The notes beneath the pieces are model-generated. The model ran no database searches, was not told the DNA's origin, and worked only from the letters and a program-made list of their open reading frames with translations. Made by a program: the position numbers and the translations under genes. 64,000 bases of DNA, taken from the NCBI RefSeq assembly GCF_008085905.1, contig NZ_VSFF01000003.1, positions 1-64,000 on the forward strand. The letters are read 5' to 3'. Positions 2,765 to 36,071 of this stretch are shown here, in pieces. How positions within the stretch are numbered: position 1 is the first letter of the stretch; every line of letters begins with the position of its first letter. This stretch comes from Actinomadura syzygii. GTDB lineage: Bacteria; Actinomycetota; Actinomycetes; Streptosporangiales; Streptosporangiaceae.

Positions 2765-2778
2765 GGGACCTTCGGCCC
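2765..2778. promoter_or_regulatory. DosR-like palindrome, 9/10 arm match
   Basis: GGGAC-CTTC-GGCCC fits the GGGAC-N4-GTCCC pattern with one mismatch, 170 bp upstream of the CBS-BON start. A weaker copy, GAGACCTTCGGCTC, sits at 2838-2851. Confidence 0.55.
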
Positions 2779-2938
2779 CGTCACATGGCGGTACTGGCCG
2801 AATGGTCCGACCCGATGACGTCCCTCCCCTCCTACCCGAGACCTTCGGCTCTTACCTGCGGAAACGAGGCGATCGAGATTGAAGGCGGGTGAGGATCGGC
2901 GGGCGCGAACGCGGCGCTGGCGTTCGGGTCAAGGAGGC

Positions 2939-3130
2939 TATCCCCACGTCCAAGTCACGACGTCGCTGGTGCTGAAGTCGCCGCGCGAGGCGCTGTTCGA
3001 GGCCGCGGAGGACGCCACCCTCGCGGTGGTGGGCGCCCGGGACACCGGCGTCGTCGAGAGGCTGACCCTCGGCGCCACCAGCGATGCCCTGCTCAAGCAC
3101 GCCCCCTGCACGGTCGCCGTCGTCCCGCAG
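2939..3130 (+). pseudogene. Universal stress protein C-terminal remnant
   Basis: This frame encodes about 64 residues that match the last third of a tandem Usp protein. It begins YPHVQVTTSLVLKSP, continues with VVGARDTGVVERLTLG and ends CTVAVVP. The intact Usp at 23842-24690 has the corresponding YPRVDVLDEIVLEHP, VVGARDRRWNAPRLG and CPVAVVP segments. The first two thirds are missing and no convincing start or ribosome site precedes the fragment, so it looks like a deletion relic. The same frame stays open into the neighbouring Crp-like fragment. Confidence 0.7.
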
Positions 3131-3238
3131 CGGTTCGGGCCCCCGCTTGGCCGCGGGCTGCTGGAAACTTGGACGGAGGACGAGTCAGATGAGCATCGTG
3201 GCGGCAACGACCTCAAGCGGGAACCGTTCCTGAAGGAC

Positions 3239-3373
3239 ATGAGGACCCCAGATCTGACCAGGCTGGCGACGGCGGCCCGGTTCACCGGCGTCCCCGCGGG
3301 TCGGGGTCTCTTTGCGGAGCGCACGCCGGCTGAGCGCTTCTGGCTGCTCCACGAGGGATGGACGCGGCTTTGG
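3239..3373 (+). pseudogene. Truncated cyclic-nucleotide-binding (Crp-like) remnant
   Basis: From an ATG the frame reads about 45 residues (MRTPDLTRLATAARFTG, then VPAGRGLFAE, then RFWLLHEGW). These align with residues ~20-65 of the stand-alone cyclic-nucleotide-binding protein at 29423-29905 (MPDASLAALATTAEDVD, VPAGHRFFDE, RFWLLRSGR). The beta-barrel continues no further because the convergent arginine deiminase gene begins here. It is probably a duplicate of the hydrogenase-operon gene, broken by deletion. Confidence 0.6.
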
Positions 3374-3391
3374 CCAGGCGGATCAGGTCTT

Positions 3392-4600
3392 TCAGGGGGT
3401 CACCTCGTCGCGTTGGAGGGGGCAGCTCATGCAGCGGGGGCCGCCGCGGCCGCGGCCGAGTTCGCCGCCGGGGATGGTGATGACCTCGATGTCGTGGTGG
3501 CGGAGCATGGTGTTGGTGGTGACGTTGCGTTCGTAGGCGAGGACGACGCCGGGTTCGACGGCAAGGACGTTGTTGCCGTCGTCCCATTGCTCGCGTTCGG
3601 CGGCGCGGACGTCCTGCTCGGCGGTGAGGAGGTGGATGCGGGGTAGGCCCAGCGCGCGGGCGATCGCGGGGAACAGCGCCTCGTTCTCGTGCACGCAGAC
3701 TTCCTCGCCTCTTCCACGGGTGAGGGTGTAGGAGCGCAATGGCGGCAGGCCGGGGTAGATGGTGAAGGTGTCGCGGTCGACCATGGTCAGGACGGTGTCC
3801 AGGTGCATGAAGGCGCGCCGGCGCGGCAGTTGGACGGCGATGACGCGCTGCACCGTCCCGGTGGTGAACAGGCGCCGGGCGAGCAGTTCGATGGCCTGCG
3901 GGGTGGTGCGTTCGCTCATCCCGATCAGGACCAGCCCGTCCTCAAGGACATGGATATCGCCGCCTTCGATGGTGGGCAGGGCGAAGTCGGCGCCCGCGTA
4001 CCAGACGGGGATGTCGCCGTCGCTGAACATGGGGTGGTGGCGGTAGATGGCGTCGAGATGGACTGTCTCGCGGCGGCGGGCCGGTTTCGCCATCGGGTGG
4101 AGGGTGACGCCGCGTCCGATCCAGGCGGAGGGGTCGCGGGTGAACAGGTGGTTGGGCAGCGGCGGCAGGACGAAGTCGCCGTCTTCCAGGGAGGACAGCA
4201 GCAGGCTGTGCACGGCCAGGCCGAGTTCGGCCTTGGTGATCCCGCCGATCAGGTGGCGGGTCATGGACTCGGGGTCCATGTCGTCCAGCGCGGCCCGGAC
4301 CGGCGTGGCCAGAGTCGGGCCGAGAGCTGCCTCCGACGTGGTGGTGTCAAGGATCTGGGTGCGGGCCTGGTCGCTTTTGAGGGTCTCGGCAAGCAGGTCG
4401 GAAAGGTAGTGCACCTGGACGCCGCGTTCGCGGAGGGCGTCGGCGAACACGTCGTGTTCCTGGCGGGCGCGTTTGGCCCACAGGACCTCGTCGAAGAGCA
4501 GGTCGTCCTTGTTGTCGGGGGTGAGACGGAGCAGTTCCAGGCCGGGACGGTGCAGCAGAACCTGCCGCAGCCGTCCGACCTCGGAGGAGACGGTGAACAC
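3392..4600 (-). CDS. arcA: Arginine deiminase
   Basis: The 402-residue protein, normal length for ArcA, hydrolyses arginine to citrulline and ammonia in the cytoplasm, the first step of the ADI fermentation route. Visible guanidino-group-modifying signatures are FTRDPS near the middle, [17 protein letters not shown], and the C-terminal MSCPLQRDE carrying the catalytic cysteine. GTG is the start, preceded by AAAGGAA. It follows the amino acid permease by 12 bases, so one transcript is likely. No ornithine carbamoyltransferase or carbamate kinase gene lies nearby, so the ATP-yielding steps must be encoded elsewhere or the gene serves acid or ammonia balance. Confidence 0.93.
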
Positions 4601-4612
4601 GGAACGTTCCTT

Positions 4613-5989
4613 TCAGGCGGCTTGCGCGGGCGGTTCGGACTCGTCGACCTGCGCGGCCTCCACCGCTTGGGCGTGGTCGTGCTGGTCGCGGTACTTCAGC
4701 CAGGCGTAGACCGGCATTCCGGCGAAGATCAGCAGGGTGCCCTTGAACACGACCTCCTGGCCCGCGCCGCCGATCGCCCACACCGAGTACCCGAAGGCCA
4801 GCAGCGCGACGACGGCCGAGCGGGTCAGGCGACCGCGAGAGAAGGAGGGGCGGTCGGTGGCCAGCAGCACCAGCTCGGCGGCGGCCGCGTAGGCGTACGG
4901 GATGACGGTGGTGAGGGTGGCCAGCAGGATGATGAAGGTGAACTGGTCGACCAGGCTGGCGTTGTAGTTCAGCAGCATCAGCCCCGACACCAGGACGCTC
5001 GACACCACCAGCCCGACGATCGGGGCGCCGCCGCGTCCGGTGCGGGCGAAGGTGCGGGGGAACAGGCCGTCGCGGGCGGCGGCGAACGGGATCTGGCCCT
5101 GGAGGAGGATCCACCCGTTCAGTGCCCCGAACGCGCTGAACGCCGCCCCGGCCGCGACCAGGTCGGCGGCCCAGCCGCCGAACGCGGCGTCGGCGGCGTC
5201 GGCGAACGGCGCGGTCGAGGTCGCCAGCGCCGCAGCCGGGACCAGGCCCAGCACCGCCACGGTCCCGAGGATGTAGATCAGCGCGGTGACGGCCGTCCCG
5301 GCGACGGTGGCGCGCGGAACGGTCTTCTCCGGGTCCTTGACGTCCTCGGCCGGGACGGTCGCCGACTCCAGCCCGATGAACGCCCACAACGTCAACGCCG
5401 CCGCGCCCGTCACCGCGCCGAACGCGCTGTCCCCGCTGGCGTTGAACTCGCCGAAGTTCGCGGACTTGATGAAGAACAGCCCGCCGACCGCGATCAGCAG
5501 CAGCGGCACCAGCTTGATGACCGTCGTGACCACCTGCACCACGCCGCCCTGGCGGACCCCGTAGGCGTTGACCGCGGTCGCCGCCCACACCGCCGCCAAC
5601 CCGACCCCGGCGGCCAGCACCTTGTTCTCGGCCAGCGCGTCCCAGAAATGCGCCGTGTACCCGACGAACGCGACCGCGATGGCGGCGTTCCCGGCCCACA
5701 CCGCGATCCAGTAACCCCACGCCGTCTGGAATCCGACGAAATCACCGAATGCCCTGCGCGCGTACGCGTACGGGCCGCCGGTCCGCGGATAGGCCCGCGA
5801 CAACCGCGCGAAGACCAGCGCCAGCAGGATCGCCCCAGCCGCGGTGAAACCCCACGCCACCAGGCTGATCGGCCCGTACTCGGCCAGCGAGGCGGGCAGC
5901 AGGAACACACCCGACCCGATCATGTTGCCCACCACCAGGGCCGTGGCCATCCACAGCCCCAGCTTCCGGCGGGCCGGTCGCACGCTCAT
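4613..5989 (-). CDS. APC-family amino acid permease, probable arginine/ornithine antiporter
   Basis: The product has 458 residues and about 12 membrane helices. It begins after MSVRPARRKLG with the APC signature MATALVVGNMIGSGVFLLP, which forms the substrate-binding first helix (GSG). Length and helix pattern fit the AdiC/ArcD-like basic amino acid antiporters. Because arginine deiminase follows by 12 bases, exchange of arginine for ornithine or citrulline is the likely job, though substrate cannot be read from the sequence. The start at 5989 has a GAAGGAG ribosome site; a start 17 codons earlier lacks support. A DosR-like box lies 109 bp upstream. Confidence 0.85.
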   Translation of the reverse strand: MSVRPARRKLGLWMATALVVGNMIGSGVFLLPASLAEYGPISLVAWGFTAAGAILLALVFARLSRAYPRTGGPYAYARRAFGDFVGFQTAWGYWIAVWAGNAAIAVAFVGYTAHFWDALAENKVLAAGVGLAAVWAATAVNAYGVRQGGVVQVVTTVIKLVPLLLIAVGGLFFIKSANFGEFNASGDSAFGAVTGAAALTLWAFIGLESATVPAEDVKDPEKTVPRATVAGTAVTALIYILGTVAVLGLVPAAALATSTAPFADAADAAFGGWAADLVAAGAAFSAFGALNGWILLQGQIPFAAARDGLFPRTFARTGRGGAPIVGLVVSSVLVSGLMLLNYNASLVDQFTFIILLATLTTVIPYAYAAAAELVLLATDRPSFSRGRLTRSAVVALLAFGYSVWAIGGAGQEVVFKGTLLIFAGMPVYAWLKYRDQHDHAQAVEAAQVDESEPPAQAA

Positions 5990-6097: not shown

Positions 6098-6111
6098 CGG
6101 ACCAAGGTCCC
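6098..6111. promoter_or_regulatory. DosR-like palindrome, 9/10 arm match
   Basis: CGGAC-CAAG-GTCCC lies 109 bp upstream of the permease-arcA operon. Confidence 0.6.
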
Positions 6112-6140: not shown

Positions 6141-6401
6141 TCATTCGTAGGGGCGGACGACGGCCGCGGCGAACGCGTGGTCGAGCGCCGGTGCCGGGTC
6201 TTCGACCAGGTCCAGCCCGACCACGACCTCGTCGGTCGTGGGGTCGTCACGGTCGGGCCGGTCGCGGACCACGATGATGGGGCCGGGGTAGTGGCCGGCC
6301 AGGCGCAGGCTCGTGGAGCCGAGCAGCAGTCCGGTGAACCCGCCCCGGCCGCGATGCCCGACGACGACTCCGGCCAGGATCGTCGTTCGTTGCGTGGACA
6401 T
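6141..6401 (-). pseudogene. Universal stress protein middle fragment
   Basis: The 86-residue frame begins at an ATG with a purine-rich upstream run. It contains GHRGRGGFTGLLLGSTSLRL (the ATP-binding GxGxxG-type loop at the end of a first Usp domain) and DEVVVGLDLVEDPAPALDHAFAAAV (the opening strand and helix of a second domain). Aligned with the 282-residue Usp at 23842-24690, it lacks about 95 N-terminal and about 90 C-terminal residues. A short expressed protein cannot be excluded, but it lacks a complete Usp fold. A 9-bp direct repeat (gaggtcagt) sits just upstream. Confidence 0.6.
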
Positions 6402-6724: not shown

Positions 6725-6738
6725 GGGACCTTCGTCCC
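6725..6738. promoter_or_regulatory. DosR-like palindrome, perfect arms
   Basis: GGGAC-CTTC-GTCCC, the leftmost of two perfect boxes in the 367-bp divergent region 6642-7008. It is 84 bp from the small coiled-coil gene. Confidence 0.7.
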
Positions 6739-6808: not shown

Positions 6809-6822
6809 GGGACGAAGGTCCC
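6809..6822. promoter_or_regulatory. DosR-like palindrome, perfect arms
   Basis: GGGAC-GAAG-GTCCC, 187 bp upstream of the CtpF-like ATPase. Its centre is exactly 84 bp (eight helical turns) from that of the box at 6725. Mycobacterial DosR promoters often carry paired boxes. Confidence 0.7.
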
Positions 6823-7008: not shown

Positions 7009-9696
7009 GTGCGAAACCACCGTCCAGGCACCGGGCACTCCGCCGGCCCCGGGACCGACACGGCCACGACGACCACCGATCCGCGCGAGCCCCTGCCCCT
7101 GCTCCGCAAGGAGCTGCACACGGGCGACCGGGGACTGTCGGGACGCGAGGCCGCCCGGCGGCTGGCCGTGTACGGGCCGAACCAGGTCCGGCGGCGTGAG
7201 AAGCGGTCTCTGGCGCGTCTGCTGTCGGCTCAGCTCCTGCATCCCCTGGCGCTGCTGCTGTGGGGCGCGGGTGCGCTGGCGTTCGTGGCCGGGATGCCGG
7301 TGCTGGGTTGGGCGATCCTGGCCGTGATCGTGATCAACGCCGTGTTCGCGCTGCTGCAGGAGCATCAGGCCGAGCGCGCGGTCGAGGCGCTGGCCGCGTA
7401 CTTACCCGAGCGGGCCGACGTCGTCCGGGACGGACGACGGCAGGCGGTGGAGGCGGCCGAACTCGTGCCGGGCGACCTTCTCGTCCTGGAGGAGGGGGAC
7501 AAGATCCCCGCCGACGCCCGGTTGACCGAGGGCGCGCTGGAGATCGACCTGTCGATGCTGACCGGCGAGTCCGCGCCGGTGGAACGGGTGGCGGCCCCGT
7601 CGGAGCAGGGTGTCGCCCTGGTGCATGAGCCGAACCTCGTCTTCTCCGGGACGACCTGCACAGGGGGAGAGGCGCAGGCGATCGTGTTCGCGACCGGCGG
7701 GCACACCGAACTCGGCCGCATCGCCGCGCTCAGCCAGCGCGCCCCGCGCCGGGACAGCCCGCTGGAGACGCAGGTCAAGAAGGTCGCCTGGCTGATCGCG
7801 GCGGTGGCGGTCGGGATGGGCGCGGTGTTCCTGCTGATCGGCGCGCTGGTCGGCCTCCCGCTGACGGACGCTCTGATGTTCGCGATCGGGCTGCTGGTCG
7901 CCAACGTCCCCGAGGGGCTGCTGCCGACCATCACGTTGGCGCTGGCGGTCGGCGTCCGGGTCCTGGCGAAGCAGGGCGCGGTGGTCAAGCGGCTCAGCGC
8001 GGTCGAGACGCTCGGCTCCACCAATGTCGTCTGCACCGACAAGACCGGCACGCTCACCCAGAACCGGATGCGGCTCCAGGCGCACTGGACCCCGCGAACC
8101 GGCATCGCCTCCGGCACGCCGCCCGCCGAACTGGCGCGCGCGATGAGCGAGTGCACCACGACCTCCTACGACGAAAGCGGCGAGCTGCGGGGCGATCCGA
8201 CGGAGATCGCACTGGTCGAGGGAAGCGGACCGGATCTGCCCGCGCGCGTCGCGGCCCGGGACGGCCGCCGCCGCGCGCTGTTCCGGTTCGACGCGCGGCT
8301 GCGGCTGATGTCCACCGTCGCCGAGCACGACGGACGTCTCGTCGTCTACGTCAAAGGCGCGCCCGAGGCCGTCCTCGCCCGCACGTCCGGCGTTGACCGC
8401 GACGCGGTCATGGCCGTGGTCGGCGACCTTGCCCATCGCGGGCTGCGCGTCCTCGCGGTCGCCGTGCGGGACCTGCCGCCCGGCGCCGACGCGCCTGCCC
8501 GCCGGGAGGACGCCGAGACCGGGCTCCGCTTGCTCGGGCTCGCCGGGCTGTACGACCCGCCACGCCCGGAGGTCGCCGAGGCCGTGCGCCGCTGCCACGA
8601 CGCGGGGCTGCGCGTCCACATCGTCACCGGCGACAACGGCGCCACCGCGGCCGCCGTCGCGGCGGAGGTCGGCATCGGCGTCCCACGGCTGCACGTGGTC
8701 GCCGAGTCCGAACGGATTCACGACCACGAACTGGACGAGCTGGTCACCGGCGACGCCGAGATCGTGTTCGCCCGGTCCTCCCCGGAGACCAAGCTCAAGG
8801 TGGCCGACGCGCTGCGCGCGCACGGCCAGATCGTGGCGATGACCGGGGACGGCGCCAACGACGCGCCCGCCCTGCACCAGGCCCATATCGGCGTCGCGAT
8901 GGGACGCTCGGGCACCGACGTGGCCCGCGAGGCGTCCACGATGGTGCTCACCGACGACAACTTCGCCACCATCGTCACCGCGATCGAGTCCGGCCGCAGG
9001 GTCTACGACAACGTCCGCAAGTTCATCCTGTACATCTTCGCGCACGCCGTTCCCGAGATCGTCCCGTTCCTGGTCTTCGCGCTCAGCGGCGGCCTGGTGC
9101 CGCTGCCGCTGACCGTCCTGCAGATCCTCGCGATCGACCTCGGCACCGAGACCCTTCCGGCACTGGCACTCGGCCGTGAACCCGCCGAGCCCGGCATCAT
9201 GGGCCGGCCGCCGCGCCCGTCGTCCCAGGGGGTCATCTCCCGCGACATGCTGGTCCGCGCATGGGGCTATCTCGGCCTGATCTCCGCCGCCCTGGTCATG
9301 TCGGTGTTCTTCTACGTCCTGTGGCGCGCCGGATGGCATCCCGGCGACCCCACCGGCGACGGCGACGCCTTGCACCACGCCTATCTGACCGCCACCACCG
9401 CCACGTTCGCCGGGCTGGTCACCTGCCAGATCGGCACCGCCATGGCCGCCCGCACCGACCACGCGTCCCTGCGCCAAGTGGGGCTGACCACCAACCCGCT
9501 CCTGCTGGCCGGTATCGCATTCGAACTGCTCTTCGCCGCCGCCCTCATCTACCTGCCGCCCCTGCAACACCTGTTCGGCACCGCCGCTCTGCCCTGGGAC
9601 GTCCTGGCGATCATCGCCGCGTTCCCGGTCATCGTCTGGGGCGCAGACGAACTCCGCCGCCGTCACCGCCGCCGCGCGCACCTGAACAAGCAATGA
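7009..9696 (+). CDS. ctpF: P2-type cation-transporting ATPase (CtpF-like)
   Basis: This 895-residue ATPase has the full P2 layout. An N-terminal cation-ATPase domain (~30-75) precedes the first helix pair, then LTGES at ~185-189, the PEGLL membrane motif at ~311-315 typical of Ca/Mn/Na-type pumps, and the phosphorylated aspartate at residue 344 in CTDKTGTLT. The nucleotide-binding KGAPE segment, [12 protein letters not shown] hinge and six C-terminal helices follow. It lacks heavy-metal-binding N-terminal domains and the CPx motif. M. tuberculosis CtpF (Rv1997) is the closest family I recognise and is DosR-controlled. The GTG start follows GGGAGA. Two perfect DosR-like boxes lie in the upstream divergent region. 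Confidence 0.88.
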
Positions 9697-9858: not shown

Positions 9859-9872
9859 GGGACGAAGGTCCT
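9859..9872. promoter_or_regulatory. DosR-like palindrome, 9/10 arm match
   Basis: GGGAC-GAAG-GTCCT with extended flanks (AAAGGGAC on the left, GTCCTTG on the right), 59 bp upstream of the nitric oxide reductase start. The rest of the 234-bp gap 9697-9930 shows nothing else. Confidence 0.65.
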
Positions 9873-9930: not shown

Positions 9931-12336
9931 ATGGATTCGTCCGCGGTGACGACCCCCCGACGTCGCGACCGGCTCATCGGCCGCGGCTGGATCCAAGCGG
10001 CCGCCCTCGTCATCCTGTTCGGTTTCTTCGTCCTGGTCCTGATGGGATACCAGACCTACCAGTCCGGCCCGCCGATCCCCGAACGCACGGTCACCCCTTC
10101 CGGGCAGACCGTCTACACGCGCGCGGACGTCAAGGCCGGTCAAGGTGTTTTTCTTAAGAACGGGCTGATGGAGTACGGCTCCATCTTCGGCCACGGCGCC
10201 TATCTGGGCCCGGACTTCACCGCCGACTACCTCCACCGGTCCGCCGAATTAGTCAACAAGACCTACGGCGGCACCGGATCCGGTTCTGCAGCGCAGCGCA
10301 CCATCGACGACTACCGCGTCAACAAGTACGACGCCAGGACCCGCACCCTCACCATCTCGGACGCCCAGGCCGAGGCCTTCACCACCATGACGGCGTACTA
10401 CGCCCGCTTCTTCGCCAGCCCACAGGGCAAGACCGGCCTGCGGCCCAAGGCCATCACCGATCCGACGCAGATCAGGCAGCTCACCGGCTATTTCGCCTGG
10501 AGCGCCTGGGCGGCGGCGGCGCAGCGGCCCGGCGAGAAGTACAGCTACACCAACAACTGGCCGTCCGAGCCGCTGGTCGGCAACAAGCCCACCGCCGACA
10601 CCGTCCTGTGGAGCGCCGTCAGCCTGATCGCGCTGCTCGGCGGTACCGGCGCGCTGTTCGCCGCCTTCGGCAGGTGGAACTGGCTGGGCTGGCACGGACG
10701 CGATCGGCAGGAGCTGAGGTTCCGGGAACCGGGATCGGTGGGCCTGACCCCCAGCCAGCGGACGACGGCCTGGTTCTTCTTCGCCGTGGTGGGCCTGTTC
10801 CTGCTGCAGACGATCGTCGGGGCCGCGAGCCAGCACTACAGAGCCGACCTGGGGAGTTTCTTCGGCATCCCGCTGGACCGGTGGCTGCCCTACAACCTGG
10901 TGCGCACCTGGCACGTCCAACTCGCGCTGTTCTGGGTGGCCACCAGCTTCCTGGCGGCCGGCATCTTCCTGGTCCCGATGATCACTCGCAGGCGCGACCC
11001 GAAATGGCAGGCCGGACTCGCCTACGCGTTGCTGGGCGCCCTGGTCGTCGTGGTTGTCGGCTCGATGCTCGGAGAACTCGCCGGCATGCGCGGCGCATTC
11101 GGGGAGCTGTGGAGCTGGCTGGGCATGCAGGGTTTCGAATACCTCGACCTCGGCAGGCTGTGGCAGATCCTGCTCACCATCGGAATGGCGTTCTGGGTCG
11201 TGCTGCTGTGGCGTGGCCTGCGCCACAAGCTGGCCACCGAAAGCCGCGCCAACCTTCCCTGGCTGTTCTTCTTCGCGGCGCTGGCGCTGCCCGTCGTCTA
11301 CGCGACCGGGCTGCTGGCCAGGCACGATTCTTCGTTCACCGTCACGGACTTCTGGCGTTTCATGGTCGTGCATCTCTGGGTCGAGGATTTCCTGGAGCTG
11401 TTCACCACGGTGATGGTCGCCTACATTTTCGTGCTGCTGGGAGTGGTGCGGGAGCACATCGCCCTGCGGGTGGTCTTCCTGGACATCGTGCTCTACAGCG
11501 CGGGCGGCGTCATCGGGACCGCGCATCACTGGTACTTCAACGGCGAACCCGCCTCCGTGCTGGCCCTGGGCGCGTTCTTCTCCGCCTTCGAGGTCATCCC
11601 GCTGACCTTCCTGACCATCGAGGCGTGGACGTTCATCCGCCTCGGCGCCCGGCAGGAGTCCAAGAGCGCCGCCGCCTTCCCCCACCGGTGGGCGGTGATG
11701 TTCCTCGTCGCGGTCGGTTTCTGGAACTTCCTGGGCGCCGGAGTCTTCGGCTTCTTGATCAACCTGCCCGTCGTGTCGTACTTCGAGATGGGCACGTCGC
11801 TGACCGCCAACCACGGCCACGCGGCCATGATGGGCGTCTACGGCATGCTGGCCGTCGGATTCGCGATGTTCGCGCTCCGCTACCTCGTGCCCGCGCGGCG
11901 CTGGTCCGACAGGGCCGCCGCGGTCAGCTTCTGGTCGCTGAACGCCGGGCTGGCCTGGATGGTCTTCGTCACCTTGCTGCCACTCGGCCTTCTGCAGCTG
12001 TACCGCTCGGCGGACGTCGGCTACTTCGACGCCCGCAGCCTCTCCTTCGTGAGCGACTCGACCAACACCGTGTTCGAGTGGCTCCGGCTCCCCGGTGACG
12101 TGGTGTTCATCGTCGGCGGGATCGGACCGCTGCTGTGGCTGGCCTGGCTGGGCGTTCGGCACCGCGGGCGCCATGCGGCGCCACTCGGCGCCGGGCCCCC
12201 GGCGTCCGCTGAAACCCCCGCACCGGCCGGGGCCGTCGAGCACGGATCCACAGGGGCCGCCGCGCCCGTAGAACAGGAGCTGGTGTTGTTCACCGAGGTC
12301 GTCCCGCCTGCCGAGGGTGTCCGTCCAGCTGACTGA
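9931..12336 (+). CDS. norZ: Quinol-dependent nitric oxide reductase (qNOR)
   Basis: The 801-residue protein reduces NO to N2O using quinol at the cytoplasmic membrane. It has an N-terminal helix (~25-45), a large periplasmic insert (~60-200) that replaces the NorC cytochrome but has no CxxCH motif, and then a 12-helix haem-copper-oxidase-like core. RTWHVQLALFWVATSF, HHWYFNGEP and NHGHAAMMGVYGMLA carry the histidines expected for haem b, haem b3 and the non-haem iron. Length fits single-subunit qNOR. The ATG at 9931 has AGGAGG upstream; a longer reading from 9769 is unsupported. A DosR-like box 59 bp upstream suggests induction by NO or hypoxia. Confidence 0.92.
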   Translation: MDSSAVTTPRRRDRLIGRGWIQAAALVILFGFFVLVLMGYQTYQSGPPIPERTVTPSGQTVYTRADVKAGQGVFLKNGLMEYGSIFGHGAYLGPDFTADYLHRSAELVNKTYGGTGSGSAAQRTIDDYRVNKYDARTRTLTISDAQAEAFTTMTAYYARFFASPQGKTGLRPKAITDPTQIRQLTGYFAWSAWAAAAQRPGEKYSYTNNWPSEPLVGNKPTADTVLWSAVSLIALLGGTGALFAAFGRWNWLGWHGRDRQELRFREPGSVGLTPSQRTTAWFFFAVVGLFLLQTIVGAASQHYRADLGSFFGIPLDRWLPYNLVRTWHVQLALFWVATSFLAAGIFLVPMITRRRDPKWQAGLAYALLGALVVVVVGSMLGELAGMRGAFGELWSWLGMQGFEYLDLGRLWQILLTIGMAFWVVLLWRGLRHKLATESRANLPWLFFFAALALPVVYATGLLARHDSSFTVTDFWRFMVVHLWVEDFLELFTTVMVAYIFVLLGVVREHIALRVVFLDIVLYSAGGVIGTAHHWYFNGEPASVLALGAFFSAFEVIPLTFLTIEAWTFIRLGARQESKSAAAFPHRWAVMFLVAVGFWNFLGAGVFGFLINLPVVSYFEMGTSLTANHGHAAMMGVYGMLAVGFAMFALRYLVPARRWSDRAAAVSFWSLNAGLAWMVFVTLLPLGLLQLYRSADVGYFDARSLSFVSDSTNTVFEWLRLPGDVVFIVGGIGPLLWLAWLGVRHRGRHAAPLGAGPPASAETPAPAGAVEHGSTGAAAPVEQELVLFTEVVPPAEGVRPAD

Positions 12337-13338: not shown

Positions 13339-13404
13339 GTCGCCTCCTCGCATTCGCGACTCGTGGGGCTGGCGGTTCAGGGCAGGCGGACGCGGCCGTT
13401 GCGG

Positions 13405-14159: not shown

Positions 14160-14173
14160 GGGACGTTGGTCCC
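14160..14173. promoter_or_regulatory. DosR-like palindrome, perfect arms
   Basis: GGGAC-GTTG-GTCCC, 65 bp upstream of the STAS start and 23 bp past the apbE stop codon. Confidence 0.7.
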
Positions 14174-26008: not shown

Positions 26009-26466
26009 GACGGATGGCTTTCCTTCATGGCGGACGGGAGCGAGGCGGCGATCCGGTCGGCGACGGTGATGACGGCGGCGGCGACCCGCGGTGTCAGTCC
26101 GCGGCCGAGGCCGAAGTCGTGCCCCTCGATCGCGAGGACGCGCAGCCGGACGGGCATCTGCCCGACGGCGAGCCCGAGCGCGACGGCGTCGCCGAGCCCG
26201 AGGGAGTGGCCGGTGACGGGACGCCGGGCGAGCGCCGCGGTCTCGGCGCCGAGGTCGTGGATCCGTCCGGGGACGGGCGGCTCGGCGCGGACCGCGTCCA
26301 CGACGATCGCCAGGTCCGCCCCGGCCCACAGCGTGATGAGCCGGGCGGGCTCGCCGTCGGTCACCGCGAGCGTCGCGGCCACCCGGCCGCGCAGGGCCTC
26401 GACCACCGCGGGGCCCGCGCCGTCGTCGCGGCGGAAGTCGTTGCCGACGCCGATGACGATGGTCAC
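26005..26466 (-). CDS. Hydrogenase maturation endopeptidase (HycI/HoxW type)
   Basis: The 153-residue protease removes the C-terminal tail of the large subunit after nickel is inserted. It begins [20 protein letters not shown], the family's opening GxGNxxxxDDGxG motif with the first metal-binding acid. [13 protein letters not shown] holds the second acid and [13 protein letters not shown] the histidine. GTG is the start, overlapping the large-subunit stop (GTGA), and its own stop overlaps hydB (ATGA). Placement directly after the large subunit makes that subunit its obvious substrate. Confidence 0.92.
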
Positions 26467-27758: not shown

Positions 27759-28578
27759 CGTCGGCCTCCCGATCGTCGGCCTCCCGATCGTCGGCCTCCC
27801 GCCCGGACGGCGCCTCGCGGAACGCGGTGACGTTGAAGGTGGACAGCACCCGGTGCGTCTCGTCCTCGGTCATGTCCAGCCACGGCAGCAGCGCGCGGGT
27901 GTTGGGCCTGGTCCCGCCCCAGGCGGGGGAGGGGCCGAAGCAGCCGTAGCAGCCCCGCCCGTACGCCGGGCAGATCGCGCCGCAGCCCGCGTGGGTGATG
28001 GGCCCCAGGCAAGGAGTGCCGTGGGCGACCATCACGCAGAGGTTCCCGCGGCTCTTGCATTCGAAGCACACGCTGTGGCGCGGGACGTCGGGGTTGCGTC
28101 CGGTGAGGTGGGCCGTCAGCACCTCCAGGAGCTGGCGGCGGTCGATCGGGCAGCCGTGCAGCTCGAAGTCCACCGGCACGTGCGCGGCGACGGGCGTCGA
28201 GTCGGCGAGGGTGGCGATGTACTCGGGACGCGCGTAGACCACGGACGCGAACTCCCGCACGTCGCCGAAGTTCCGCAGCGCCTGGACGCCCCCGGCGGTC
28301 GCGCACGCCCCGATCGTGATCAGCTTCCGGGACACCGCCCGCACGTGCCGGATCCGGTCGAGGTCGGCGGGCGTCGTGATCGACCCCTCGACGAGGGAGA
28401 CGTCGTACGGGCCCTCCCCGGCGGCGCTGGACGCCTCCAGGAAGTGCGCGATCTCGATCCGCCCGGTGAGGGCGAGCAGCTCGTCCTCGCAGTCCAGGAG
28501 GGTGAGCTGGCAGCCGTCGCAGGAGGCGAACTTCCACACGGCGAGCGTCGGTCGTCGTCCCCTCGCTACAGGTCCCAT
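27742..28578 (-). CDS. hydD: [NiFe] hydrogenase small (delta) subunit, group 3b type
   Basis: The 278-residue protein opens with [13 protein letters not shown], the proximal 4Fe-4S site, and has [38 protein letters not shown] and [24 protein letters not shown] for further clusters. There is no twin-arginine signal, consistent with a cytoplasmic group 3 enzyme. ATG 28578 has GGGAG upstream and lies 2 bases after the gamma stop; longer readings would overlap gamma. The C-terminus is a threefold READD repeat coded by a 15-bp repeat, and its end overlaps the large-subunit gene by 17 bases. Confidence 0.92.
27757..27801. repeat. 15-bp in-frame tandem repeat at the delta/alpha junction
   Basis: Three exact copies of atcgtcggcctcccg encode READD repeats at the end of the small subunit; the first copy overlaps the large-subunit start. 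Confidence 0.85.
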
Positions 28579-28580
28579 CG

Positions 28581-29426
28581 CTACAGCTCCCTGACGGTCA
28601 TGAGCGGGACGGCCCGCTCGTACGGCACGACTGGCCCGTCCCGGCAGATCAGCAGCGGTCCGAGCTGGCAGTGCCCGCACCAGCCGAGCCCGCAGCGCAT
28701 GTTGCGCTCCAGCGACAGCCGCACGTCGGCGGCGGGCGTCCCCAACCCGATGAACGCCTCCGCGGTGACGCGCATCATGACCTCCGGGCCGCAGACGAAC
28801 GCGACCGCGCGGGCCGGATCGACGTCCGCGGCGCCCGCCAGCGACGTGATCAGCCCGACGTGGCCCGTCCAGCCCGGGGCCGGGCGGTCCGCCGTGACCT
28901 CGACCTGCGCGCCGCGTGCCCGCCACTCGTCGAGCTCGCCGGTGAACAGCAGGTCGTCAGGGGTGCGGACGCCGATCAGGACCGCGATCCGGCCGAAGGC
29001 GTCCCGGTCGGCCAGCGCCCGCAGCACCACCGGCCGCAGCGGCGCGAGCCCGATCCCGCCCGCCGCGATCACGAGGTCGCGTCCGCGTGCCGAGTCCAGC
29101 TCCCAGCCGGTGCCGAACGGCCCGCGCAACCCGAGGACCTGGCCCGGCCGCGTCCCGCACACGGCCCTGGTCACGGCCCCCACGGCTCGGACGGTCTGCT
29201 CAAGCACCGGCCCCGTCCGGCTCACGGAGATCGGCACCTCACCGACGCCGAACGCGTACATCATGGTGAACTGGCCGGGAGCGGGCTCCGGGATGGCAGC
29301 CGCGACGGGCTCCAGGGTCAGCGTCACCGTGTCGGCCGTCTCCGCGCGGCTCCGCGTCACCCGGTACGGGACGGGCGCCATCGGTGAGCCCTGCGGCGTC
29401 ACCTGCCGTGCCATCTGCGAGGTCAT
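28581..29426 (-). CDS. hydG: Hydrogenase gamma subunit, FAD/NAD(P)-binding reductase
   Basis: The 281-residue protein is a ferredoxin-NADP reductase-like subunit linking hydrogenase to NAD(P)(H). An FAD barrel (~15-100, [20 protein letters not shown]) is followed by a nucleotide-binding domain ([28 protein letters not shown]). A C-terminal 2Fe-2S site follows ([24 protein letters not shown]). ATG 29426 overlaps the stop of the upstream cyclic-nucleotide-binding gene. With delta, alpha and beta it completes the four-subunit group 3b enzyme. Confidence 0.92.
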
Positions 29427-29905
29427 CGCACGTCCTCGGGATGCGCGTACAGGTCCAGCATCCGGACCCGGGTGGCTTCGAGGCGGTCCAGCATCACCGC
29501 CGCGAACCGCAGCGTCAGGTCGTGGCCGAGCCGAGGGTCGGCGGCGCACAACTCCCGCACACCCGGCCCGTCGAATTGGACGGCCTTCACCGGTTCCAAG
29601 GCGACGGCGCCGAACCTCCAACGATGTGGGGAGAACAGCCATGACCAGCCCAGCACCGCCGAGGCGGGCAGGGTCTCCACCACCACGGCGCCCCGGCCGG
29701 GCACTTGGAGGTCGAGCGCGACCCTGCCGGAGCGGAGCAGCCAGAACCGCTGGGCGGATCCGCCTTCGTCGAAGAAGCGGTGCCCGGCCGGAACGTCCAC
29801 GTCCTCGGCGGTCGTGGCCAGTGCGGCGAGGCTCGCATCGGGCATGCCGACGAAGAATCGCGCCTCCGCCAGAGCGTCGGCCGTGACGCCGCTCGTATGC
29901 TCCAC
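29423..29905 (-). CDS. Stand-alone cyclic-nucleotide-binding domain protein, first gene of the hydrogenase operon
   Basis: The 160-residue protein contains a Crp-type sensor barrel (~15-125: FFVGMPDASLAALA, VPAGHRFFDEGGSAQRFWLLRSGRVALDL, ASAVLGWSWLF) but stops before any helix-turn-helix. It therefore cannot bind DNA as Crp does. PR-x-x-SA-type cAMP-binding residues are not evident. Such single-domain proteins commonly lead group 3b hydrogenase operons, and their role is not established. GTG is the start with GAGGAGG upstream; the stop overlaps the gamma start. A perfect DosR-like box lies 144 bp upstream. Confidence 0.85.
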   Translation of the reverse strand: MEHTSGVTADALAEARFFVGMPDASLAALATTAEDVDVPAGHRFFDEGGSAQRFWLLRSGRVALDLQVPGRGAVVVETLPASAVLGWSWLFSPHRWRFGAVALEPVKAVQFDGPGVRELCAADPRLGHDLTLRFAAVMLDRLEATRVRMLDLYAHPEDVR

Positions 29906-30046: not shown

Positions 30047-30064
30047 AAGGGACCAAAGTCCCTT
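30047..30064. promoter_or_regulatory. Best DosR-like box: perfect 7-bp arms
   Basis: AAGGGAC-CAAA-GTCCCTT, a flawless 7+4+7 palindrome 144 bp upstream of the hydrogenase operon. It agrees with the mycobacterial DosR consensus GGGAC-TWWA-GTCCC at all arm positions. The rest of 29906-30259 shows no gene. Confidence 0.8.
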
Positions 30065-30259: not shown

Positions 30260-30844
30260 TCAGGCCGGGCGGTGACGGCGCTGGTCGAAACGGTGCCAGG
30301 CCCGGTCCCAGGCGCGGTAGCGCCGGCGGTCCAGGCGGTGGCGCAACAGCAGGTAGAGGCCGAGCGACGACAATCCCGCCGCCACAGCGGTCGCCGCCGC
30401 GGTCACCACCACTTCGACGACCGTGCGCGCATGCGTCCGCGGCGGCGAGTCGCTCACCCTGTGCCGCGGCCCTGCCCAAACCTTGGGATGATCACCGAAC
30501 TCGACGCCGCGCCAGGTGACGTAGCGCCCGGATCGGAGCGTTCCGTCCTGGTCGATCCAGACCACGGTGACCTCACGCCCGCTCTGCAGCCGTCTGACCT
30601 TCACCACCGTGGCGTCCACGCGGTGCCGCGCGGTGGCCTCATATCGCTCCGCACGTCCCCCCGCATCCCGGGCATGTTGGACGGCCTGGACGCAGAGGAC
30701 CGGAGTGATCGCCAAGAAGACCACGAGGAGGAACAGGCCGGAAAGCCACTGGACCCGATCCACGGGACGGCGCAGGTCATTGTCGTCGAACCCGCAGCGA
30801 CGGCGCCAGCGATCGACCCTTGACCACGATTTAGGCGATTTCAT
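30260..30844 (-). CDS. Rv1733c-like two-helix membrane protein
   Basis: The 194-residue protein has a basic N-terminus and a helix (~37-57, WLSGLFLLVVFLAITPVLCVQAV). An extracytoplasmic domain of about 85 residues contains YEATARHRVDATVVKV and VTVVWIDQDGTLRSGRY, followed by a second helix (~150-170) and a basic tail. Size, topology and the H-x-V-x-ATV plus V-W-x-D-x-x-G pattern match Rv1733c of M. tuberculosis, a strongly DosR-induced membrane antigen of unknown function. ATG 30844 has TTGGAGGA upstream. It diverges from hypF across a region with three DosR-like boxes. Confidence 0.75.
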   Translation of the reverse strand: MKSPKSWSRVDRWRRRCGFDDNDLRRPVDRVQWLSGLFLLVVFLAITPVLCVQAVQHARDAGGRAERYEATARHRVDATVVKVRRLQSGREVTVVWIDQDGTLRSGRYVTWRGVEFGDHPKVWAGPRHRVSDSPPRTHARTVVEVVVTAAATAVAAGLSSLGLYLLLRHRLDRRRYRAWDRAWHRFDQRRHRPA

Positions 30845-30992: not shown

Positions 30993-31006
30993 CGGACCGA
31001 TGTCCT
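30993..31006. promoter_or_regulatory. DosR-like palindrome, 8/10 arm match
   Basis: CGGAC-CGAT-GTCCT, 149 bp from the Rv1733c-like start, in the 434-bp divergent region 30845-31278. Confidence 0.5.
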
Positions 31007-31053: not shown

Positions 31054-31067
31054 GGGACGAACGTCCT
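31054..31067. promoter_or_regulatory. DosR-like palindrome, 9/10 arm match
   Basis: GGGAC-GAAC-GTCCT, 61 bp centre-to-centre from the box at 30993, between the Rv1733c-like gene and hypF. Confidence 0.6.
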
Positions 31068-31207: not shown

Positions 31208-31221
31208 GGGACCTTCGTCCC
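31208..31221. promoter_or_regulatory. DosR-like palindrome, perfect arms
   Basis: GGGAC-CTTC-GTCCC, 58 bp upstream of hypF. Position and quality suggest it drives the hypFCDE operon. Confidence 0.7.
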
Positions 31222-31278: not shown

Positions 31279-33609
31279 ATGACCGGTACGCGGACACGCG
31301 AGGACGGCGGGACGGCCGAGGCGCGGCGGTTAGAGGTTCGCGGGACCGTGCAGGGAGTGGGGTTCCGGCCGTTCGTGTACAGGCTGGCCCTGGCATGCGG
31401 GGTCCGCGGCGACGTGCGCAACAGCGGCGGCGTGGTGCTGATCACGGCCGTGGGGGAGGCGCCGGTGCTGGACGACTTCGCGGCCCGTCTCGTCACCGAG
31501 GCGCCGGGAGCCGCGTCGGTGACCGGGGTGACGGCGACGACGCTGACCGGCGCGGTGGCACCGACGGGATTCGCGGTGCTCGGCAGCGCCGCGGACGGGT
31601 CGGCCACCCGGGACGTGCCGTCCGACCTGGCCACCTGCGAGGACTGTCTGCGGGAGCTGTTCGATCCGGGAGACCGGAGGTACCGGTATCCGTTCGTGAA
31701 CTGCACCGCGTGCGGCCCGCGCGCCACGATCATCGCGGCGCTGCCCTACGACCGGGCCCGCACGACGATGGCCGCCTTCACGATGTGCCCGGCGTGCGAG
31801 GCCGAGTACCGCGACCCAGCAGACCGTCGCTTCCACGCCGAGCCCATCGCGTGCCCGGCGTGCGGGCCCCGGCTCGGCTGGCATCCCGGCGGGCGGCGAG
31901 AAGAGGCGGCCCTGAGCGCCGCCGCGGCGGTGATCCGCGGCGGCGGGGTGGTGGCGGTCAAGGGCATCGGCGGCTATCAGATGGTGTGCGACGCGACCGA
32001 CGCGGAAGCGGTCGGCAGGCTTCGCGCCGCCAAGGGCAGGGAGGCCAAACCGCTGGCCGTGATGGTCCCGGATCTGGCGGCGGCGCGCGCGCTCGCCGAC
32101 CTGACCGCCGCCGACGTCGGCGCGCTGACCTCGTCCGCCCGTCCCATCGTGCTGGCGCCGCGCGCGAGCGGATCGCTTGCCGCGCAGGTGTGCGACGGCC
32201 TGCCGGACGTGGGCGTGTTCCTGCCCTACAGCCCACTGCACCACCTGCTGCTGCGCGATGTCGCCGGGCCCCTGGTCGTGACCAGTGGAAACCACGCGGG
32301 CGGACCGATGGTGATCGAAGACGACGCGGCTCACCACCGACTGGGCCCGGTCGTCGATGGTGTCCTCTCCCACGACCGGCCGATCCTGGCCCGCTACGAC
32401 GACTCCGTCGTCCGGGTGGTGGCCGGGCGGCCGTCCACCGTGCGCCGGGCCCGCGGTCTCACTCCGGCTCCGCTGCCGCTTCCGGTCGCCGCCGACGAGC
32501 CGGTCCTGGCGCTGGGAGCCCAGCTCAAGCACACGTTCACCGTCGCCAACGGCCGGCGGGCGATCGTCGGCCCGCACACGGGCGACCTGGAGGACGCGGA
32601 GACCTACGCCGCGTTCGAACATGCGCTGGAGCGCTGCCTGCGCGTCGAGGACGTCGAACCGGCGTACGTGGCGCACGACCTGCACCCGGAGTACCTGTCC
32701 AGCAAGCACGCGGCGCGATGGCCCGCGCGCCGCCGGATCCCGGTCCAGCACCACCACGCCCATGTCGCCGCCACCGCGGCAGAACACGGCGTGACCGGCC
32801 CCTTTCTCGGCGTCGCCTACGACGGGCTCGGGCTGGGCGACGACGGCACCTTCTGGGGCGGGGAGATCCTGCTCGCCACCTACACGGGATATCGAAGGCT
32901 CGGACGCTTCTCCCGCGCGCCGCTGTGCGGCGGCGCCGCGGCCGTGCGGCGGCCGGCCCGGATGGCGCTCGGCTACCTGTTCGGCGCCGAACCCCTGGAC
33001 CACGCCGGTCCGGTCGCCGGCCCGGCAGCGGACCTGGTGGCGCGGCTGCCCGAACGGGAGGTCGCCGTCGTCCGCCGCATGATCGATCGGGGTGTGAACT
33101 CGCCCCCGGCGTCCAGCGCGGGACGGCTCTTCGACGCCTTGGCCGCGCTCCTCGGGATCTGCGACGACAACCGTTACGAGGGTGAGGCCGCGATGCGGCT
33201 CGAGGCGGCCGCCGCCGGACAGGACGCCGCGGATCCGCTCGACTGGAGGCTGGTCCGGCACGGCGGGCTGTGGGTGTACGACGGCGCGGTGACGCTGCGC
33301 GACGCGCTCGCGGCCCGCGCGGACGGCGAGCCGCCCGGGCGGATCGCCGCCGCCTTCCACCGGACTCTCGCCGCCGTCACCGCCGAGCTGTGCGGCCGCG
33401 CCGCCGACGACGCCGGCGTCGGCACCGTCTGCCTGTCGGGAGGCGTGTTCCAGAACCGCACGCTCGCCGCTGCCGTCGTCGGCGCGCTGGCCGGGGCGGG
33501 GTTCGAGGTCTTCATCGGCGAACGGGTCCCGGTGAACGACGGGGGTGTCAGCTACGGGCAGGCGGCGGTCGCGGCGGCGCGGCTGGCGGGCGCCCCGGAG
33601 AGGAGATGA
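31279..33609 (+). CDS. hypF: Hydrogenase maturation carbamoyltransferase HypF
   Basis: The 776-residue protein makes the thiocarboxamide precursor of the cyanide ligands. Domains in order: acylphosphatase (~14-100, [14 protein letters not shown]); two zinc fingers (CEDCLREL...NCTACG and CPACEAEY...ACPACG, ~120-200); YrdC-like (~210-390, [22 protein letters not shown]); and a Kae1-like C-terminus ([24 protein letters not shown]). Start ATG has GGAGGAGA upstream. It is the first gene of hypF-C-D-E, with four-base overlaps or short spacing throughout, and has a perfect DosR-like box 58 bp upstream. Confidence 0.96.
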
Positions 33610-33614
33610 ACGGC

Positions 33615-33884
33615 ATGTGCCTGGGCATTCCCGGACGGATCGTCGAGGCCGACGACTCCTACCCGCGCATGGGCGTGGTCGACTTCGACGGCGTCCGCCG
33701 GGAGGTCTGCCTCGCCTACACCCCGGAGGCGGACGTCGGGGACTTCGTCATCGTCCATGTCGGCTTCGCGATCAGCACGGTGGACGAGGAGGAGGCCGCC
33801 CGCACCCTGGCGGTGCTCAACGCCATCCCCGACGCGCTGAACGCCGAACTGGCCGGCGGCGACCCGTCCGGGAGGGCCGGATGA
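33615..33884 (+). CDS. hypC: Hydrogenase assembly chaperone HypC
   Basis: The 89-residue protein begins [11 protein letters not shown]. The N-terminal cysteine after the initiator is the one that binds the Fe(CN)2CO group with HypD. An ATG three codons earlier (33606, overlapping the hypF stop) would place three residues before that Met-Cys. It also abuts the AGGAG ribosome site with no spacer, so 33615, nine bases from AGGAG, is the better start. The rest ([33 protein letters not shown]) is standard HypC/HupF. Confidence 0.94.
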
Positions 33885-34966
33885 GATATCTCGACGAGTA
33901 CCGGGATCCGGTGCTGGCCCGGCGGCTGCTCGCCGACGTCCACGCCACCGCCACCCGGCCCTGGACGATCATGGAGGTGTGCGGCGGGCAGACGCACACC
34001 ATCGTCCGGCAGGGCATCGACGAGCTGCTGCCCGCCGACGTGCGCATGATCCACGGCCCCGGCTGCCCGGTCTGCGTCACCCCGCTGGAGACCCTGGACC
34101 GCGCGCTGGCCATCGCCGCCCGCCCCGAGGTGGTCTTCACCAGCTTCGGCGACATGCTCCGCGTCCCGGGCACCCGCGGCGACCTGCTCGGACTGCGGGC
34201 CAGGGGAGCGGACGTGCGCGTCGTCTACTCCCCGCTCGACGCCGTCGGCCTGGCGGCCGCCAACCCCGACCGGCAGGTGGTGTTCTTCGCGGTCGGGTTC
34301 GAGACCACCGCCCCGGCCAACGCGATGGCCGTCCTGCGCGCCCGCGACCTGGGCCTGGACAACTTCTCCATGCTCGTCAGCCATGTGCTGGTGCCGCCCG
34401 CGATCACCGCCGTCCTCGACGCGCCCGACAACCAGGTGCGGGCGTTCCTGGCCGCGGGCCACGTCTGCGCGGTGATGGGCTGGACCGAGTACGAACCGAT
34501 CGCCGCCCGCTACCAGGTGCCCGTCGTGGTCACCGGGTTCGAGCCCCTCGACCTGCTCGAAGGGATCCTGATGGCCGTCCGGCAACTGGAGGACGGCCGC
34601 CACGAGGTCGAGAACCAGTACGCCCGCGCGGTGCGCCGCTCCGGCAACACCGCCGCCCAGGACGCGGTGCGCCGCGCGTTCCGCGTGACCACCCGGACAT
34701 GGCGCGGCATCGGCCCCATCACGGCCAGCGGCCTGGCGCTCGCCCCCGAGCTCGCGGACTTCGACGCCGAACGCCGCTTCGCCGTCGACGGGCTCGACTC
34801 CGCCGAGAACGCCGACTGCATCGCCGGAGCGATCCTGCGGGGGACCAGCCTGCCCACCGACTGCGCCGCGTACGGCACGCGGTGCACGCCGCGCCACCCG
34901 CTGGGCGCGCCGATGGTGTCCAGCGAGGGCACCTGCGCCGCCTTCCACAACGCCGGGAGAACATGA
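33881..34966 (+). CDS. hypD: Hydrogenase maturation protein HypD
   Basis: The 361-residue iron-sulfur protein is the scaffold where the Fe(CN)2CO group is built with HypC. Motifs in order: [34 protein letters not shown], the [13 protein letters not shown] segment, and C-terminal cluster cysteines ([36 protein letters not shown]). ATG overlaps the hypC stop (ATGA), and the stop overlaps the hypE start region. Confidence 0.95.
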
Positions 34967-36012
34967 TGACCGATCCGACCGCCCTGAGCTGTCCCGCACC
35001 GGCGGCCGAGACCGAACGGGTCCTGCTCGGCCACGGCTCCGGCGGACGTCTGATGGCCGAGCTGCTGCACGACGTGATCGCGGCCGAGCTGGGCGCGGAC
35101 CGCGTCACCGAGGACGCCGCGGTCGTCGACACCGGCACCGCCGAGGTGGTGACCAGCACCGACTCGTTCGTCGTCACGCCCCGGTTCTTCCCCGGCGGCG
35201 ACATCGGCTCCCTGGCCGTGCACGGCACCGTCAACGACCTCGCCATGCGCGGCGCCCGGCCGGTCGCACTCACCCTCGCCTACATCATCGAGGAGGGTCT
35301 GCCGCTGGACGAGCTGCGCGCGGTCACCGCGTCGGCGGCGCGCGCGGCGGGCCTGGTCGGCGTCCCGATCGTCACAGGGGACACCAAGGTGGTCCCGCGC
35401 GGCGCCGCGGACGGCCTGTACGTCACCACCGCCGGGATCGGCGTCCGTCGGCTGGGCGCGGCGCCCTCGGCGGCCCGGGGCCGTCCCGGCGACATCGTCC
35501 TGCTGTCGGGACCGATCGCGCTTCACGGCACCGCGATCCTCAGCGCCCGGGAGAGCCTCGGCTTCGAGGCCGAGATCGCCTCCGACAGCAGGCCGCTGCA
35601 CGCGCTGGTGACCGCCATGCTCGACGCGGGCGGACCGGACGTGCACACCCTGCGCGACCCCACCCGGGGCGGTCTCGCCAGCGCCCTCAACGAACTGGCC
35701 GAGACCTCGTCGGTCGGCGTCGACATCGCCGAGGACGCCGTCCCCGTACCGCGGCCCGCGGCCGCCGCCTGTGAGCTGCTCGGACTGGACCCGCTGCACG
35801 TCGCCAACGAGGGCTGCCTGGTCGCCTTCGTCGCACCGGCCGCGGCCGACGCCGTCCTGCGCGCGATGCGCGCCCGCCCCGAAGGCACCGAGGCCCGCGC
35901 GATCGGCACGCTCACCGACGAGCACCCCGGCCGCGTCCACATGCGCACGCTGCTCGGCGGCGTCCGCGTCGTCGACATGCTCGTAGGCGAGCAGCTCCCG
36001 CGCATCTGCTGA
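34966..36012 (+). CDS. hypE: Hydrogenase expression/formation protein HypE
   Basis: The 348-residue AIR-synthase-like protein dehydrates the carbamoyl group on its C-terminal cysteine to thiocyanate. The glycine-rich N-terminus LLGHGSGGRLMAELL, DSFVVTPRFFPGGDIGSLAVHG, TGDTKVVPRG and LRDPTRGGLASALNE are all present, and the protein ends PRIC with the essential terminal Cys. Adjacent ATGs occur at 34963 and 34966; the second gives a 5-base spacing from GGGAGA. No hypA or hypB follows, so nickel insertion must rely on genes elsewhere. Confidence 0.94.
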   Translation: MTDPTALSCPAPAAETERVLLGHGSGGRLMAELLHDVIAAELGADRVTEDAAVVDTGTAEVVTSTDSFVVTPRFFPGGDIGSLAVHGTVNDLAMRGARPVALTLAYIIEEGLPLDELRAVTASAARAAGLVGVPIVTGDTKVVPRGAADGLYVTTAGIGVRRLGAAPSAARGRPGDIVLLSGPIALHGTAILSARESLGFEAEIASDSRPLHALVTAMLDAGGPDVHTLRDPTRGGLASALNELAETSSVGVDIAEDAVPVPRPAAAACELLGLDPLHVANEGCLVAFVAPAAADAVLRAMRARPEGTEARAIGTLTDEHPGRVHMRTLLGGVRVVDMLVGEQLPRIC

Positions 36013-36057
36013 CACGCCGGACGAACCGGCTACGACCGGATCAGCCGCCCGTCACAG

Positions 36058-36071
36058 GGGACGTTGGTCAA
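36058..36071. promoter_or_regulatory. DosR-like half-palindrome upstream of the pfl locus
   Basis: GGGAC-GTTG-GTCAA (8/10), 80 bp upstream of the pflB remnant start. Confidence 0.45.

Follow-up and report, generated by a model that had tools for sequence, protein, structure and literature searches.

The first 64,000 nucleotides of contig NZ_VSFF01000003.1 of Actinomadura syzygii (contig C21 in our numbering), here called the window, carry between positions 1 and 36,400 an island of palindromic boxes placed upstream of genes. This island is very probably part of a DevR/OsdR-type regulon, in which a DevR dimer would act through boxes of the form GGGAC-SWWS-GTCCC. A DosR-like regulon had been proposed in an initial annotation of this DNA, based on thirteen GGGAC-N4-GTCCC palindromes, and the proposal is supported by the clustering of the boxes, by a DevR-like regulator gene whose own promoter has a box, and by three DevS-like kinases. 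Since the same box precedes the gene for the DevR-like regulator, the boxed island genes are likely switched on together.

Box motif and its distribution

All thirteen palindromes have the 5+4+5 geometry and stand where the initial annotation placed them, five with perfect arms, four with one mismatch, and four with two, and all thirteen are intergenic in our gene calls. The distance to the next start, reported as 58 to 210 bp, was measured as 58 to 230 bp, and the site at 36058 is an outlier, located 270 bp from the called start and some 80 bp from the N-terminal fragment of a pyruvate formate-lyase (pfl) remnant. An arm-geometry scan of the window additionally found one-mismatch sites at 5286, 24837, 36079, 57557, and 63986. 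The last two contradict the claim that sites are absent from 36.1 to 64 kb when the arms alone are considered. With the spacer counted, two two-mismatch sites remain beyond 36.1 kb (58576 and 63986), and the sites at 23718 and 30993 are more than two letters off the arm-plus-spacer pattern. Arms alone with up to two mismatches were not enriched in the window (88 matches compared to 112 expected from shuffles), and the two-mismatch sites are therefore unremarkable by geometry alone. Perfect-arm sites number 52 in the 9.70-Mb genome, with 5 in the window compared to 0.31 expected from the rest (P = 1.9e-5).

The spacer that the initial annotation gave as N4 carries a signal, S-W-W-S. Intergenic sites were selected by arms with at most one mismatch in the island and in 39 regulon loci from this genome and from relatives, and 113 of these 159 sites have this spacer. 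Four of the 39 loci had been chosen for their exact S-W-W-S boxes, a choice that somewhat flatters the share. The background gave 40 sites (30 in coding and 10 in intergenic DNA), of which 2, neither of them intergenic, have the spacer. The profile left out 70 coding sites in the regulon loci and 1 in the island. The pattern of spacer letters is symmetric, with sites in either orientation. As read from these sites, the box consensus of the island promoters is GGGAC-SWWS-GTCCC, and the profile of the 159 sites agrees with the DosR consensus NNNGGGHCNWWNGNCCCBNN printed in PMC2947987.

With the spacer included and at most one mismatch allowed, the island has nine intergenic sites in 4.7 kb of intergenic DNA, compared to none in 50.7 kb of intergenic DNA from the background (19 stretches, 380 kb). 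Eight of the 32 island genes have a box of this quality in the 250 bp before their start, as does 1 of 344 background genes (p = 1e-8), with the island limits drawn around the reported sites. Right of the island, no box precedes any of the remaining 23 genes of the window, even when two mismatches are allowed. The genome-wide density of the motif is uneven, as 4 of the 16 exact arm-plus-spacer boxes of the genome fall in the window, where 0.08 would be expected from the rest of the genome.

The boxes are not confined to the island and also precede genes on contigs C3, C6, C7, C9, and C22. Exact boxes on C3 lie 126 bp before a universal stress protein (USP) gene and 59 bp before an acetyltransferase/CoA-ligase gene, and the DevS gene of this contig has a one-mismatch box 64 bp upstream. 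On C6, exact boxes precede a NarK-type transporter gene by 191 bp, with narG next to it, and a USP gene by 51 bp; the transporter scores below its curated cut-off. Other exact boxes are located 108 bp before a GAPDH gene (C9), between a USP gene and a PNPOx-type gene (C22), near contig ends after the DevS genes on C7 and C9 (two boxes), and in intergenic DNA (C26). Proximity to a box, as seen in the sequence, does not prove control. Phosphoketolase was dropped as a box-controlled gene, having only two two-mismatch boxes, 92 and 59 bp upstream. The label "PPDK" for one C3 gene was also dropped, as Pfam shows a GDSL lipase with FG-GAP repeats.

Regulator, kinases, and related systems

No devR gene was found in the window. 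The DevR-like regulator that a DosR-like reading supposes is encoded on contig C7 (3244 to 3918), and scores 278 bits against M. tuberculosis DevR, whereas the next match, VraR, reaches 150 bits. The AEKTVKNY stretch of the DNA-binding domain is identical in the alignment of the two proteins. A perfect box, exact in its spacer as well, lies between this gene (91 bp) and a divergent gene of the Acg/Rv3131 family (99 bp; 306 bits, cut-off 199). Among 30 devR loci scanned, the best scoring 30 of 49 genomes, a promoter box with at most one mismatch was present within 400 bp in 26, and the other four had two mismatches; shuffles would give 0.08 sites with at most one mismatch and 1.3 two-mismatch sites.

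The genome also encodes kinases of the DevS/DosT type expected by the initial annotation, as three DevS-like copies on C3, C7, and C9 (L026, L029, and L030). All have GAF, HisKA_3, and HATPase domains and are 88 to 98% identical; the C7 copy shares 90% identity with the C3 copy and 88% with the C9 copy. The GAF domain of the C7 kinase matches the haem domains of DosT and DevS. Haem binding is predicted, and the conserved histidine in GFPANHPPMR is presumably the haem ligand. Assembly breaks coincide with the DevS repeats, as there are DevS copies near the start of C7 and near the end of C9, and positions 1 to 226 of the window, at the start of C21, repeat the end of contig C22 with 98% identity over 226 bases. 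Because breaks fall in the DevS repeats and in the end shared by C21 and C22, the true island is likely larger. In one relative (G006, locus L290), the counterpart of the gene at the window start adjoins DevS and devR.

When oxygen falls or nitric oxide (NO) appears, DevS-type haem kinases would phosphorylate DevR, the dimer would bind the boxes, and the boxed genes would be turned on, activation being presumed rather than repression. The predicted output of the island is a survival programme of hydrogen turnover (by an NAD(P)-linked hydrogenase that has a maturation set of its own), the breakdown of arginine, the pumping of ions, and stress proteins, to which the other contigs would add narK-nar, GAPDH, and further stress genes.

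The co-occurrence of boxes and regulator was examined across genomes. At E up to 1e-70, 49 of 65 Actinomadura genomes gave a DevR and 16 gave none; this search scored 45 first-look candidates in each genome, and the order-wide search scored 14. Genomes with DevR have a mean of 6.3 exact boxes (n = 48, our own genome omitted), compared to 2.0 in genomes without it (n = 16; p = 2.8e-6, uncorrected for kinship). A reversed control pattern showed no difference, with 0.60 and 0.38, respectively. The hydrogenase large subunit was present in 18 of 49 genomes with DevR and in 0 of 16 without (p = 0.003). In the order-wide sample, eight or more exact boxes were present in 8 of 27 Actinomadura genomes and in 0 of 173 genomes from outside the genus. 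Judging from these counts, either the many-box state would be specific to Actinomadura, or other genera may use another box dialect (the GGGCC arm, as in S. coelicolor) or regulon size. Similar boxes were seen in some other genera in a scan of 80 named hydrogenase loci, but operon starts were undefined, and these boxes were therefore not counted.

The system resembles the M. tuberculosis DosR/DevR regulon in its DevR-like regulator, its DevS/DosT-like GAF kinases, and a box that fits the consensus (PMC2947987). USP, nar genes, and the Rv1733c and Acg/Rv3131 families are also common to both, and the mycobacterial regulon markers found behind boxes here are the USP, Rv1733c, and Acg/Rv3131 families and the NarK-type transporter. 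Unlike those of M. tuberculosis, the Actinomadura boxes also precede a hydrogenase with hyp genes, an arginine deiminase, and a deacetylase, and there are three DevS-like kinases. M. tuberculosis has two haem kinases.

The OsdR/OsdK system of S. coelicolor similarly has USP and nar genes around the regulator, multiple boxes, and a box before the regulator gene (PMC5069765, in part). Its consensus in the same source, AGGGCCGATCGGCCCT, has a GGGCC arm, whereas the GGGAC arm and the S-W-W-S spacer dominate in Actinomadura. No word beginning with "hydrogenase" occurs in the main text of that paper (PMC5069765). In M. smegmatis, the hydrogenases Hhy and Hyh are reported from experiments to be members of the DosR regulon (PMC8125079 and PMC13098282). 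Hydrogenases are thus placed in a DosR-type regulon both in M. smegmatis and in this genome, where membership is predicted from sequence. The hydrogenase passages of the two M. smegmatis papers (PMC8125079 and PMC13098282) name no arginine deiminase, hypF copy, or deacetylase. The system is known in kind from DosR in mycobacteria, OsdR in Streptomyces, and the DosR-controlled hydrogenases of M. smegmatis. Our literature searches found no description of a DevR/DosR regulon in Actinomadura and none of a regulon content with arginine deiminase, a private hyp set, and a deacetylase.

Genes behind the boxes

Conservation among relatives was seen for the boxes before the hydrogenase, arginine deiminase, deacetylase, hypF, and ATPase/USP genes. 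The hydrogenase operon (24860 to 29905, minus strand) is preceded at 144 bp by a box with perfect arms (30049 to 30062) and comprises a cNMP-binding gene, an FAD/NAD subunit, small and large subunits, a maturation protease, and an Fe-S subunit, a set probably of the sulfhydrogenase type. In NCBIfam, the top matches for alpha, beta, and delta are sulfhydrogenase subunits, which also appear among the gamma matches, all of them below the curated cut-offs. NAD(P)-linked [NiFe] hydrogenases of the sulfhydrogenase type, to which this one may belong, form group 3b. By map reading, the operon has a box with at most one arm mismatch and a W-W centre in 13 of 17 relatives, and one of the misses is cut by a contig end.

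The maturation genes hypF, hypC, hypD, and hypE (31279 to 36012, plus strand) all score above their NCBIfam cut-offs, and a perfect box (31208 to 31221) lies 58 bp before hypF. A second hypF copy of this genome is located on contig C16. For the island-type hypF (at least 76% identical), an exact box was found in four of five loci, our own included; the fifth has upstream boxes in its map, but outside the 400 bp scanned. A distant hypF copy (about 50%) had no site within two mismatches in the 25 loci scanned of 35 found. The box-bearing and box-free hypF copies provide an internal control for target choice. The Rv1733c-type gene that the initial annotation had named behind a box is a firm assignment (30260 to 30763, minus strand; NF050032, 85.5 bits, cut-off 80). 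A one-mismatch box (31054 to 31067) lies between this gene and hypF, and its sequence recurs beside the Rv1733c-family gene in G006. The weak box nearby (30993 to 31006), with two arm mismatches, has no independent support.

The arginine deiminase gene (3392 to 4600, minus strand; Pfam ADI, NCBIfam NF002381 above cut-off) and an amino acid permease gene (4613 to 5989, minus strand; Pfam AA_permease_2) form an operon with a one-mismatch box (6098 to 6111) 109 bp upstream. This operon was found at 17 loci in 14 genomes, with the deiminase gene downstream in 16. A box with at most one mismatch lies within 400 bp at 8 of the 17 loci, our own included. At three further loci, another gene intervenes and is preceded by an exact box, which makes 11 of 13 genomes with DevR boxed. 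The operon has no box in G029, the sole genome without DevR among the 14, and the second operon copies in G031 and G052 also have none. Ornithine carbamoyltransferase and carbamate kinase are not next to the arginine deiminase of the window. The G054 operon continues into both, which would make an ATP-yielding set, but it is boxless. In the boxed operon of G025, a clear transferase is accompanied by a short kinase that scores below its cut-offs.

The polysaccharide deacetylase gene (19555 to 21156, minus strand; Pfam Polysacc_deac_1) has a two-mismatch box (21216 to 21229) 60 bp upstream. A box lies at -71 to -76 of this gene in 9 of 11 genomes, our own included (no more than one mismatch in five, two mismatches in the other four), and this conserved position supports the site at 21216. 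Another weak box (23718 to 23731), with two arm mismatches, lies between two divergent genes, one encoding a heavy-metal P-type ATPase fused to a hemerythrin domain (21274 to 23622, minus strand) and the other a tandem USP (23839 to 24690, plus strand; Pfam Usp, two stretches). A box with at most one mismatch is present in five of the six relatives' maps in which both genes adjoin. The fusion protein could conceivably be an oxygen- or NO-responsive pump; full-length relatives of it occur in G054, G012, and G004.

Boxes were also located before further genes. The CBS-BON gene (1918 to 2595, minus strand; Pfam CBS and BON) has a one-mismatch box (2765 to 2778) 170 bp upstream, which is also present in A. 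litoris (L062/L151) and G006 (L291) but is absent from the maps of some relatives. The weaker structure hits of the CBS-BON protein include Rv2626c (53.5 bits). The kinase-like gene coupled to the CBS-BON gene (425 to 1912, minus strand) has an AAA_33 domain, and "Rv2004c-like" is a loose label for it, as is "CtpF-type" for the cation P-type ATPase (7009 to 9696, plus strand; Pfam cation ATPase domains). For the counterparts of CtpF, Rv2626c, and Rv2004c, only general P-type ATPase, CBS, and AAA_33 domains were matched. Two perfect boxes lie between gene g7 and the ATPase gene, one (6725 to 6738) 84 bp from g7 and 271 bp from the ATPase and the other (6809 to 6822) 168 and 187 bp from them, respectively. 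The quinol-type nitric oxide reductase (qNOR) gene (9931 to 12336, plus strand; Pfam NorB_cytochrome_c-like and COX1) has a one-mismatch box (9859 to 9872) 59 bp upstream, and a STAS-domain gene (13754 to 14095, minus strand; Pfam STAS_2) has a perfect box (14160 to 14173) at 65 bp, with boxes beside STAS genes also in L062, L148, and L292.

Two genes of the island appear to have lost internal parts. Compared to its C3 paralogue, a USP gene at 6141 to 6401 retains just the two ends and one piece from the middle, and at 12886 to 13563, an oxidoreductase-like N-terminal end is joined to a BPA-like part, each matching separate genes in relatives. These clean losses may be either real decay or an assembly fault.

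For the pfl gene reported behind the site at 36058, the boxes are present but the gene is broken. The weak box (36058 to 36071; two mismatches) is paired at 21-bp spacing with a second one (36079 to 36092; one arm mismatch) that was missing from the initial list, and both precede a broken pyruvate formate-lyase run into the activase gene (36151 to 37882, plus strand), without residues 44 to 443 and 724 to 753 of the G043 enzyme. In relatives, the pfl boxes are a pair at the same 21-bp spacing in G043 (two and three mismatches), a one-mismatch box in G051, and a three-mismatch box in G001. A second copy of the pfl activase, with 97.5% identical DNA, is present on contig C13. A Mutator-family transposase gene (38206 to 39501) is located slightly beyond the last box, close to the border of the boxed region.

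Alternative explanations and implications

Boxes within the NarL/FixJ regulator family can look alike, and the boxes might belong to another member that shares the half-site, with DevR merely co-occurring. Candidates for such a regulator are many, as our own genome gave 172 first-look places for DevR. However, the box before devR in 26 of 30 loci, its fit to the printed DosR consensus, and the smaller number of exact boxes in genomes without DevR make this explanation unlikely. It is very improbable that the palindromes are instead RNA hairpins with a 5-bp stem and a 4-base loop near transcript ends or in leaders. A sequence such as GGGAC-CTTC-GTCCC could fold in this way, but the boxes precede starts, and in relatives they keep to -71 to -76 of the deacetylase, while both devR and the arginine deiminase operon have them at about -100. 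In addition, a loop would need neither a symmetric spacer pattern nor both orientations. We give equally little credit to the idea that GC-rich base composition yields the palindromes by chance and that those near starts were selected. Two-mismatch arms are indeed no commoner than in shuffles, and the site at 30993 stands without support, but the perfect sites, the spacer pattern, the intergenic placement, and the conservation all exceed chance, which disfavours this idea for most sites.

Several observations weigh against control by DevR, or against its extent. The absence of DevR from a genome depends on a limited number of first-look candidates, and the comparison of box numbers ignores shared ancestry. 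Outside Actinomadura, the difference is small, with 1.99 exact boxes in genomes with DevR (n = 156) and 1.41 in those without (n = 17; p = 0.04), in a sample of 173 genomes in which G233 was placed among the 17 by elimination. Background coding DNA contains two sites with at most one mismatch, and 2 of the 16 exact boxes of the genome are inside genes (C1 and C10). The arginine deiminase operon has no site within two mismatches in G048 and in both G054 copies. The qNOR box was found within 400 bp in none of six relatives and thus in one of seven qNOR genomes, our own. In addition, OsdR also steers development in S. coelicolor (PMC5069765, in part), and low oxygen may therefore not be the sole signal. 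The DevR/OsdR-type regulon nevertheless remains the reading that we strongly favour.

A further proposal is more tentative, and we consider it possible but rather doubtful. The DevR switch of Actinomadura may have been rebuilt gene by gene, through box gain, into a programme of anaerobic energy metabolism that goes well past the dormancy genes of mycobacteria. Such a programme would hold hydrogen production with its maturation set, arginine breakdown (with an ATP-yielding step in relatives), fermentation through phosphoketolase and pfl, nitrate respiration, and NO removal. Our confidence in it was lowered slightly because both phosphoketolase boxes have two mismatches and the complete arginine operon of G054 is boxless.

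These results extend DevR/DosR control, best known from the dormancy of tubercle bacilli, to Actinomadura, which is regarded as an aerobic genus. Because DevR was found in 49 of 65 genomes and not in the other 16, the genus offers natural comparisons of DevR targets. The boxed metabolism, apparently under the command of DevR, could help cells live without oxygen, and the regulon bears on how aerobic soil actinobacteria survive oxygen loss.

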